From assembly GCF_030068615.1 (NCBI RefSeq), contig NZ_JASJOC010000004.1:186001-250000 (forward strand): DNA of 64,000 nucleotides, read 5' to 3'. A program made the position numbers and the translations under genes. The notes beneath the pieces were generated by a model, which saw only the letters and a program-made list of their open reading frames with translations, made no database searches and was not told where the DNA came from. Each line of letters starts with the position of its first letter. Position 1 is the stretch's first letter. Source of the stretch: Halostagnicola sp. A-GB9-2. Its GTDB lineage: Archaea; Halobacteriota; Halobacteria; Halobacteriales; Natrialbaceae. Of this stretch, positions 51,761 through 54,405 are shown piece after piece.

Positions 51761-53260
51761 ATGAAGATTCGCGTCGACTGGCGCTCGAGTTGCAGCCTCA
51801 CCGGAACGGTATTAAAGTGGCTCGCCGTTCCGCTTGCTGCGCCGCTCGTTTTGGCGATGATCGACGGCTCCGACCCGACGCCGTTCGTGGTGGCGATTAT
51901 TGTCACTGCGCTCGCCGGACTGGGTCTCGAGCGACTCAGCATGGAGCGCGACCTCGGCCAGCGCGAAGCGTTTTTGATGGTCGCGCTGACGTGGCTCTGC
52001 GTCGCCGCCGTCGGCGCGATTCCGTTCTTCGTCGCCGGCGTGGGCACGCTCGCCCATCCGATCAACGCGCTCTTTGAGAGTACGAGCGGGCTCACGACCA
52101 CGGGAGCGACCGTCATCGACGACTTCGACGAGCACTCGCGGGCGATCATGCTCTGGCGACAGCTCATCCAGTGGCTCGGTGGACTGGGTATCCTGGTCGT
52201 CGCCATCGGCCTGCTCTCGAACCTGATGGTCGGTGGTGCACAACTGATGGAGACCGAAACGCAGACGCGAAACGTCACCAAGTTACGACCGCACATCGGC
52301 GACACCGCTCGGCTCATCTGGGGACTGTACGTCGGATTAACGGTCGCAGCGGCGACGACCTTTTACGCGCTCTATCTCCTCGGCCTGGCGCCGGAAATGG
52401 ATCTGTTCAACGCCGTGTCACACGCCTTTACGAGCGTCGCGACGGCCGGCTTTTCGCCGGAGGCCCAGAGCGCCGGCGCGTTCTCGCCGATCGCTCAGTG
52501 GGCGATCGTCCCCTTCATGATTCTCGGGGCGACGAACTTCGTGCTGATCTACTATGTCGTCCAGGGTAACTACCTCCAGCCGTTCAAAAGCGAGGAGTTC
52601 CGTTTCTACTTGAGCATCCTCGGAACCTTTAGCCTGCTCGTCGTCGGCATTCTGTACGTCGACTCGACGTTCGGCCGCGGCCTCGAACCGACGATTCGAC
52701 ACGGCGTGTTCAACGTCGTCTCGCTCGTCTCGACGACGGGCTACGCCTCGGTGGACTTCGACCTCTGGTCGCCCGGCGCGAAGCACATGCTCTTTTTGTG
52801 CATGTTCATCGGCGGCATGGCGGGGAGTACGACCTGTTCGATCAAGTCCCTGCGCTGGCTCGTAATTCTCAAGAGCCTCTACCGGAACCTCTTCACCTCG
52901 ATTCACCCGCAAGCAGTTCGTCCCGTGCGACTCGGCGACAGCGTCGTCGACGAGGATACGATCACCGACATCTTCTCGTACGTCCTGCTCGCCATCATCA
53001 TCTTCTTTTTGCTGACGATCTTCATCGTCGTCGACGCCGCTCGAGACCCGTCCACCGTTGTTTCGGAGTTCGACGCGCTCGGGGCGGCCGCGTCGATCTT
53101 CCTGAATATCGGACCCGCTTTCGGGATGGCCGGACCGATGGGCAACTACGAAGGCTTCTCGACGCTCTCGAAGTCCGTTATGATCATCATGATGTGGATC
53201 GGGCGCATCGAGATCATCCCCGTACTGGTACTGTTGACGCCGGCGTTCTGGAAGTCCTAA
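51761..53260 (+). CDS. trkH: TrkH-family potassium uptake protein
   Basis: A 499-residue membrane protein with the four-fold M1-P-M2 repeat of Trk/Ktr/HKT transporters. Filter-like segments are STSGLTTTGATVI, HAFTSVATAGFSP, VVSLVSTTGYASVDF and NIGPAFGMAGPMGNY; the glycine in each is the expected filter residue. It forms the K+ pore, normally gated by cytosolic TrkA. No trkA gene is in this window. Potassium uptake is essential for the salt-in strategy of haloarchaea. Confidence 0.92.
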   Translation: MKIRVDWRSSCSLTGTVLKWLAVPLAAPLVLAMIDGSDPTPFVVAIIVTALAGLGLERLSMERDLGQREAFLMVALTWLCVAAVGAIPFFVAGVGTLAHPINALFESTSGLTTTGATVIDDFDEHSRAIMLWRQLIQWLGGLGILVVAIGLLSNLMVGGAQLMETETQTRNVTKLRPHIGDTARLIWGLYVGLTVAAATTFYALYLLGLAPEMDLFNAVSHAFTSVATAGFSPEAQSAGAFSPIAQWAIVPFMILGATNFVLIYYVVQGNYLQPFKSEEFRFYLSILGTFSLLVVGILYVDSTFGRGLEPTIRHGVFNVVSLVSTTGYASVDFDLWSPGAKHMLFLCMFIGGMAGSTTCSIKSLRWLVILKSLYRNLFTSIHPQAVRPVRLGDSVVDEDTITDIFSYVLLAIIIFFLLTIFIVVDAARDPSTVVSEFDALGAAASIFLNIGPAFGMAGPMGNYEGFSTLSKSVMIIMMWIGRIEIIPVLVLLTPAFWKS

Positions 53261-53294
53261 TGAACGAAGTTCTGACACCGAAGTTTTGCGCTGC

Positions 53295-53638
53295 GTGCGG
53301 TCGCGGAGCGATCGCACTCGGCAAAATCCTCAAAAGAGCGCTTGCGCTCTTTTGGACTGGGCGATTCCTTCGGAATCGCTTGCAGTCGGGCGGCAGCGCC
53401 GCCCGACGACCTCGCGGGAGCTTCGCTCCCGCTTAGCTTCGATTAAAAGCGCTCCTCCTTCCTCTTCGTTCGCATTGCTCACTCCGAGTCAGTCGTCGGC
53501 CCGCTCGGTCACTGACTCACGGGCGTCGCCCGTTCGTCGTTGCGCGTCGCGCCGCGCTCTCGTGACCTCGCGGTACAAATTCGTGAACCGCCTGCCCTCC
53601 CCCGAGTCGCGGGCGTCTCGCAGTGGCTCGACGCCCGC
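53295..53638. repeat. Cluster of at least seven inverted repeats between trkH and hisA
   Basis: The 410-base gap (53261-53670) contains consecutive inverted repeats with 6-9-base stems: 53295-53317, 53332-53353, 53361-53379, 53386-53406, 53414-53432, 53486-53518 and 53609-53638, with a smaller one at 53519-53533. Five of them have loops of only three to five bases (for example GCGGGAGC-TTC-GCTCCCGC). No gene is visible in the gap. Confidence 0.85.
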
Positions 53639-53670
53639 TCCCGGCCACCGCTCTGTTCTCTCCTTTCGGG

Positions 53671-54405
53671 TTATTGGTTCTCGACGACGGCCTGTGCTTC
53701 CTCGAGCGAAAACTCGCCCTCGTACAGCGCGCTCCCGACGACGACGGCGGCCGCGCCGGCTTCCTCGAGCGCCCGCACGTCTTCTAGCGTGGCAACGCCG
53801 CCGCTGGCCACGATGGGAATATCGGTCGCCTCGACGAGTTCCCGGACGGGTTCGGTGGCGACCCCCTCGAGTTGCCCTTCGACGTCGACGTTCGTAAAGA
53901 GGATTCCGGCGGCACCGAGGTCCTCGTAGCGTTCAGCGGCTTCGACGGGCGTAATTCCCGCCCCTTCGGTCCACCCTTCGATGACGACTTCGCCGTCTTT
54001 CGCGTCGAGGCTCACGACCACCGAATCAGGGTGGGTCTCGCTGATTTCGGCGACGATTTCCGGATTCTCGACGGCCGCCGTCCCCAGGATGACTCGGTTG
54101 ACGCCGCGCTCGAGCAGATCGGTCGCGCCCTCGGCGGTTCGGATGCCGCCGCCGAGTTGCGTCGGAACGGCTACCGAATCGACGACTGCGTCGATCGCGT
54201 CGGCGTTCGCTCGCTCCCCTTCGAAGGCTCCGTCGAGGTCGACGAGATGGAGCGTTTTCGCCCCCGCGTCGATCCACCGTTGTGCGGCATCGACGGGGTC
54301 GCCGTAGCGCGTTTCGGTACCGCGTTCGCCCTGTACGAGTTGGACGACTTCTCCATCCTGCACGTCGACGGCCGGTATCACCTCGAACGCTGGGAACTGG
54401 CTCAT
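53671..54405 (-). CDS. hisA: ProFAR isomerase
   Basis: A 244-residue TIM-barrel enzyme. FEVIPAVDVQDG and the second-half FTNVDVEGQLEGV hold the two catalytic aspartates. VPTQLGGGIRT and PIVASGGVATLED are the two phosphate-binding loops, and LGTAAVENPEIV is typical of HisA. It catalyses the Amadori rearrangement of ProFAR to PRFAR in histidine synthesis. The divergent PiT gene starts 161 bases to its right. Confidence 0.93.
   Translation of the reverse strand: MSQFPAFEVIPAVDVQDGEVVQLVQGERGTETRYGDPVDAAQRWIDAGAKTLHLVDLDGAFEGERANADAIDAVVDSVAVPTQLGGGIRTAEGATDLLERGVNRVILGTAAVENPEIVAEISETHPDSVVVSLDAKDGEVVIEGWTEGAGITPVEAAERYEDLGAAGILFTNVDVEGQLEGVATEPVRELVEATDIPIVASGGVATLEDVRALEEAGAAAVVVGSALYEGEFSLEEAQAVVENQ

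Follow-up and report, generated by a model that had tools for sequence, protein, structure and literature searches.

The trkH-hisA gap and its hairpins

The window, the whole stretch of 64,000 nucleotides that was analysed, contains a 410-nt gap between trkH, which encodes a TrkH family cation transport protein, and the convergent gene hisA. The gap holds a cluster of inverted repeats that a preliminary description had called a set of different palindromes packed together, for which a reason beyond a single terminator was needed. The genes and the parts of the gap are listed here in window coordinates.

51761-53260 (+): trkH, the upstream gene (open reading frame, PF02386, E 1.2e-63)
53258-53260 (+): stop codon TAA of trkH
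53265-53274 (+): direct repeat CGAAGTTCTG, a near-repeat of CGAAGTTTTG (53279-53288) in the 5′ arm of P1
53279-53289 (+): 5′ arm of the closing stem P1, CGAAG-TTTT-GC (from the alignment of copies, covariation and invariance of the T-run)
53284-53287 (+): invariant T-run within the 5′ arm of P1
53290-53294 (+): GCTGC, conserved side of an internal loop, opposite TCG at 53318-53320
53295-53317 (+): hp1, hypervariable hairpin GTGCGGTCGC-GGA-GCGATCGCAC, 10 bp with one G.T
53321-53326 (+): inner 3′ arm of P1, GCAAAA
53327-53436 (+): array of four hairpins, about 110 nt, inside the 3′ arm of P1 (from comparison with L304 and L034)
53331-53354 (+): hp2, CAAAAGAGCG-CTTG-CGCTCTTTTG
53361-53379 (+): hp3, GCGATTCC-TTC-GGAATCGC
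53385-53407 (+): hp4, GTCGGGCGGC-AGC-GCCGCCCGAC
53414-53432 (+): hp5, GCGGGAGC-TTC-GCTCCCGC
53437-53441 (+): outer 3′ arm of P1, CTTCG, which across the array pairs with CGAAG (53279-53283)
53442-53462 (+): conserved tail ATTAAAAGCGCTCCTCCTTCC, the other strand of which contains TTTT and GGAGGAG
53463-53491 (+): hp6 region, a variable imperfect hairpin
53486-53518: inverted repeat, 8 bp with a 17-nt loop
53492-53507 (+): conserved motif GTCGTCGGCCCGCTCG, module B2 (G000:C33:239492-239507, from the motif search)
53501-53573 (+): hp7 region, arms CCGCTCGGTCAC and GTGACCTCGCGG, 83% complementary, enclosing further inverted repeats (53514-53538)
53519-53533: inverted repeat, 6 bp
53591-53647 (+): module B3, consisting of CCTGCCCTCCCCCGAGTCGC, a hairpin (53609-53638, 9 bp with a 12-nt loop) and CTCCCGGCCA
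53671-54405 (-): hisA, convergent, downstream of the gap (open reading frame, PF00977, E 3.8e-78)

Every palindrome quoted in the preliminary description was found where it had been placed, and the cluster is real. The gap contains four perfect stems of 8 bp or more whose loops fall in the range 3-8 nt, all within 53331-53432 (with actual loops of 3-4 nt). Stretches of 410 nt in the window hold 0.11 such stems on average, and 300 dinucleotide-shuffled versions of the block hold a mean of 0.14 and never more than 2. The fold z-score of the block is -4.5 as RNA and -4.4 as DNA. On both sides of 53331-53432 there are more hairpins, with one mismatch or longer loops. Short inverted repeats are numerous in haloarchaeal spacers, and the preliminary description had allowed for a chance cluster in GC-rich spacer DNA, but the probability of this is close to nil: it is refuted by the shuffle test together with the family-wide occurrence of a motif whose control is near zero, the covariation of the closing stem, and the positional anchoring of the copies.

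The direct repeat CGAAGTTCTG is probably a decayed duplicate of the 5′ arm of P1; it reads CGAAGTTTTG in the congener G004 (L304). The end of the conserved tail, CTCCTCCYTCC (53452-53462 in the window, and present in all copies), resembles the 3′ end of 16S rRNA, and on the other strand it is the Shine-Dalgarno-like GGAGGAG.

A modular element family: structure, range and position

The search of other haloarchaeal genomes proposed in the preliminary description revealed the block to be a dispersed element with many copies. Matches to the block were found at no fewer than eight other positions of its own genome (E < 1e-7) and in 34 of 61 relatives (E ≤ 1e-3). The 16-mer GTCGTCGGCCCGCTCG is present in 117 of 125 genomes of the family, which is probably Natrialbaceae; every one of the 29 genera has it, a single genome can contain as many as 25 exact copies, and the reversed pattern used as a control is almost absent. 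Carriers among the matches listed for an 18-mer scan, which yields chance matches in GC-rich bacteria as well, include Natrinema, Haloterrigena, Natronococcus, Natronorubrum, Natrialba and Halobiforma. At E ≤ 0.01, the covariance model R1 has matches in 177 of the 292 genomes sampled from the class (57 of 77 genera), and the 12 carriers in a phylum-wide sample of 148 genomes all belong to the same order. Roughly 1-30 copies were found per genome, as counted from searches and from the loci sampled. At the gathering score, no Rfam family matched in the window and 20 element loci yielded only a tRNA. In the open literature searched, the k-mers of the element turned up just as parts of unrelated primers, one of them for leuA in Natrinema; thus, within these sources, the element is apparently undescribed. 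Phage records gave no match and plasmids few, which speaks against a viral or plasmid origin, and a protein-coding role is improbable because hypervariable palindromes of differing length would not hold a reading frame.

When copies are placed side by side, the stop codon and a few bases are followed by CGA(A/C)N-TTTT-(G/A)C, an internal loop kCTGC, the hypervariable hairpin hp1, TCG, G(C/T)AAAA-NNTCG, AT-N-AAAAGCaCTCCTCCYTCC, the variable hp6, GTCRGTCGTCGGCCCGCTCGC, the variable hp7, CTCGCGGT, a spacer, CCTGCCCTYCCCCGRGTCGC, hp8 and CTCCCGGCCA. The stems are hypervariable and the joints between them are conserved. The modularity implied by the preliminary description was therefore confirmed and its demand for a further reason was justified, but the palindromes are not independent units; they are parts of a single composite element.

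The two outer blocks of the core pair with each other to form the closing stem P1, around the invariant TTTT and enclosing the hypervariable hairpin. In 32 compact copies, 95.2% of the cells of P1 pair, 10 of its 19 pairs have changed on both sides, and the covariation score is 0.406, compared to at most 0.077 when the partner is slid, although such covariation could be imitated in part by the exchange of hairpins between copies. At the orthologous trkH locus of 12 species the score is 0.237, compared to at most 0.072 when slid, and in L289 part of the trkH stop codon is included in the stem (CTAAATTTTGC with GCAAAATTTAG). Outside the family, 34 of 34 copies have the TTTT, next to which the bases change in pairs; the search somewhat favours this constancy, since copies with TTTT were used to build R1 and the core pattern. 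Most copies retain one mismatch in P1, the internal loop is asymmetric, and G.U pairs are rare (as a raw fraction, taken without a tRNA control). The commonest class of 3-nt loop is GAA/TTC, and 19 of 38 stems that occur with several loops have them in both orientations, as if the palindromes may have been rewritten at the DNA level, for example by template switching or exchange between copies.

Two other features of the alignment deserve mention. The base after AAAA in P1 and a base in GATnAAAAGC (columns 52 and 59 of A1) are correlated as C-G, A-T and G-C, but T is found with C, and the structure of P1 offers no explanation. An insert of two hairpins (GTCGTTCGA-hairpin-TGATGACGA-hairpin-TCGAACCACG) is found at several different places inside the element (L199, L022, L003, L031, L072, L198, L224, L230 and L340), and its own closing stem covaries (GTCGTT/AACGAC in L198).

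The position of the element relative to genes is constrained. With genes called by a codon-usage model made for this analysis, the core starts 3-15 nt behind a stop codon in 82 of 110 sampled copies, compared to 3.3% of random positions in the gaps of the same loci. By set of copies, the T-run lies 0-15 nt behind a stop codon in 47 of 58 located by an independent downstream motif and, among those located by R1, in 15 of 18 within the family and 20 of 34 outside it; about one quarter of copies are not anchored to a stop codon. The upstream gene is co-directional with the element at 81 of 88 intergenic motif sites, and the downstream genes are both convergent and tandem. In other families, matches face each other in pairs a few hundred bases apart, and the loci of this kind that were read have convergent genes with one copy each. 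One copy starts directly behind a tRNA-Ala gene (L355). Several relatives have a different recurring spacer motif (GGGATGAGCGAG...GAATCGGCTGGGGAGG) close to the convergent gene, oriented opposite to the element (L297-L301, L303, L367).

The 131 stop-anchored copies sit behind just 39 families of upstream genes, many of them housekeeping genes, and several of these families are common to different genera, some to different taxonomic families. Their NCBIfam names include ribosomal protein L16, EngB, TbsP, TFS, DNA polymerase II large subunit, MvaD, aIF-1A and geranylgeranyl reductase family protein; by our own reading of the sequences, other host genes are presumably those of GyrB, PurF, aIF-5B and PAN. 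The host genes of the 131 copies end with TAA (80), TAG (43) or TGA (8), TAA being commoner than in the sampled loci overall (207 TAA, 155 TAG, 251 TGA). At the trkH-hisA gap, which the preliminary description had suggested comparing among relatives, the element is kept in 14 of the gaps that were read, the window included; it is absent from four, of which two are only 25 and 44 nt long, and three more (in G019, G092 and G025) have module B3 without the core. The four species without it indicate that the element is dispensable there. Restriction of the anchored copies to so few gene families shared across genera suggests that the element is old and has been inherited largely vertically with losses, a pattern that argues for a function at the 3′ end of the gene.

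The four-hairpin array and a free 147-nt form

At the trkH-hisA locus, the congeners G003 and G004 have a compact form of the element. The extra 110 bases or so of the window lie exactly inside the 3′ arm of P1 (53327-53436) and are the four perfect hairpins that were noticed first; the CGAAG/CTTCG pairing of P1 is kept in expanded copies. The array is thus a lineage-specific difference at trkH, most simply explained as a gain in the lineage of the window rather than a loss in both congeners. Segments that contain the array, 84-89% identical, are found elsewhere in the same genome (C13:8474 and C1:1000370) with flanks that do not look stop-anchored, and we infer that the array derives from free copies of the same element family.

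Free copies are best defined in two relatives. Four near-identical copies in G071 and three in G118 have in common a segment of exactly 147 nt that runs from TGCGAACCGAAC to CACACTTCTCCGCCT, whereas their flanks are unrelated, and this form appears to have multiplied recently in both genomes. The end of the free form is found in none of 137 anchored copies and in 7 of 28 unanchored copies, and module B2 is found in 134 of the 137 anchored copies, a figure biased by the way of collection, since some of the copies had been located through the B2 motif or the core pattern. Flanking inverted repeats are clear in one of the seven free copies examined. At one locus of G118 (L365), the 147-nt core is carried within a TIR element with the ends CAGTAGTTGC...TTCTTTATTC, for which the relatives G106 (L424) and G095 (L425) have an empty site with a 4-5-bp overlap.

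In G110 (L423), the TIR element at this site carries other cargo with a possible small orf, as if cargo had been swapped while the ends stayed fixed. In place of the 147-nt core that G118 (L364) has at a second orthologous site, G119 (L421) has about 500 nt containing a possible small orf, and G106 (L422) has another hairpin-rich segment; the ends of this site, CACTAYACGTG and RTACTGA, are alike in all three.

The proposal of modular mobile palindromes in the preliminary description therefore applies to the free form and probably to the added array, but not mainly to the core, which stays behind the same genes across genera and appears largely vertical.

A possible role at transcript ends

The element family, its anchoring, orientation, orthology, covariation and range, and the array as a lineage-specific difference having been established, the best explanation, with a probability of about 0.58, is that the element, modular, structured and anchored to the stop codon, acts at the 3′ end of the upstream gene to terminate or process its transcript. 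A few nucleotides beyond the stop codon, RNA polymerase would pause at the invariant U4 tract, the hairpins including P1 would fold in the RNA, and pausing together with cleavage, probably by archaeal aCPSF1, would release the transcript and leave a folded 3′ end; transcripts from the convergent side may likewise be stopped by the T4 runs of the other strand. Termination or processing, the role of aCPSF1 and the effect in both directions are what we infer from position and structure. Since the closure of P1 lies 50-190 nt downstream of the U tract, the element cannot act as a classical terminator with a hairpin followed by U residues. The copy of the element at trkH in the window would additionally have gained the array of about 110 nt. 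Archaeal 3′ ends lie at U tracts (PMC7515710), and one hairpin gave 59% termination in a Haloferax reporter (PMC7237163). The rarity of G.U pairs and the loops in both orientations, neither of which a purely RNA-level element would need, fit less well with such a function.

A series of strong hairpins directly behind a stop codon, kept behind housekeeping genes, might instead shield the 3′ ends of housekeeping mRNAs from 3′-5′ exonucleases in organisms without an exosome, with termination taking place elsewhere; Haloferax is reported to lack the RNA exosome (PMC10470531). Stabilisation of mRNA cannot be the purpose of the copy behind the tRNA gene, which together with the constancy of a T-run that pairing does not require favours a role at the transcript end; convergent genes also have one copy each, and mRNA stabilisation as the main function is considered unlikely. 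Less likely still is that the copies are small mobile repeats (REP-, MITE-, PATE- or SMR-like) that prefer to insert just behind stop codons and have no host function. Related copies are dispersed, those of the 147-nt form are identical with unrelated flanks in G071 and G118, a TIR element whose site is empty in relatives carries the core, and the array is a lineage-specific addition; but the same orthologues are followed by anchored copies in different genera and in some cases different families, the closing stem covaries at a single orthologous locus, and the end of the free form is missing from every anchored copy.

A structure acting in the DNA, with cruciforms or hairpins that insulate convergent genes or affect supercoiling or replication, would account for the near-perfect stems with few G.U pairs, for the GAA/TTC loops and loops in both orientations, and for a fold z-score that is nearly as low for DNA as for RNA. 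The scarcity of G.U pairs and the loops in both orientations lend indirect support to the cruciform site considered in the preliminary description. Against it, the orientation of the element to the upstream gene and its distance from the stop codon are fixed, a mismatch and an asymmetric internal loop are kept, and copies are present at the ends of tandem genes too, making a DNA-level function improbable.

Beyond a possible role at transcript ends, the element could belong to a dedicated haloarchaeal system in which a specific protein or RNA factor reads a conserved RNA structure (T4 inside P1 with its kept mismatch, the GCUGC/UCG internal loop and the CUCCUCC tract) behind a defined set of housekeeping genes, and which small mobile elements have captured and spread; this extension is tentative. 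Archaeal termination has been described as dependent on U tracts without hairpins, and the element would give haloarchaeal genetics a defined, testable transcript-end signal, as well as explaining a common class of palindromes in haloarchaeal spacers. An old anchored element and a mobile form share the same core.

The element was compared with known systems. Like the sites of archaeal U-tract termination with aCPSF1 (PMC7515710, PMC8716108), it has a short T-run shortly downstream of the stop codon (in 82 of 110 copies, with TTTT in 34 of 34 copies outside the family), and the 3′-end map of Haloferax volcanii (PMC7237163), in which a single hairpin terminated 59% of transcripts, also concerns haloarchaea. 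In contrast to known archaeal 3′ ends, which are U tracts without preceding hairpins, the element has several conserved hairpins and its T-run is inside a stem. A bacterial-type intrinsic terminator was rejected, as AAAAGC and the CTCCTCC tract come after the hairpin of the core, whose 5′ arm contains the T-run. Hairpin-cluster intrinsic terminators of bacteria (PMC8355165) likewise have several hairpins within tens of bases of the stop codon and require no U run after the stem, but they are defined by position and folding only, whereas the element is a homologous family with conserved joints that is kept behind orthologous genes.

REP and BIME sequences (GTAG- and CGTC-tagged, PMC3733652; REPINs, PMC3116915) are also dispersed, modular extragenic palindromes, often behind genes. 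They were rejected as a class for the element, which is not one short repeated palindrome in high copy with a conserved stem but has hypervariable stems, conserved joints and anchorage to orthologues. The MITE, PATE and SMR sequences of Haloquadratum (PMC3119063) are short non-coding repeats of haloarchaea that contain palindromes and nested insertions. The free form resembles them, and its copies in G071 and G118 would fit lineage-specific insertions of a homogeneous small repeat, as in SMR and PATE sequences. Anchored copies differ from such repeats, being without the end of the free form and largely vertical behind the same genes. By these comparisons, the element would work most like a hairpin-assisted terminator, and its free form appears to behave like a small mobile repeat.
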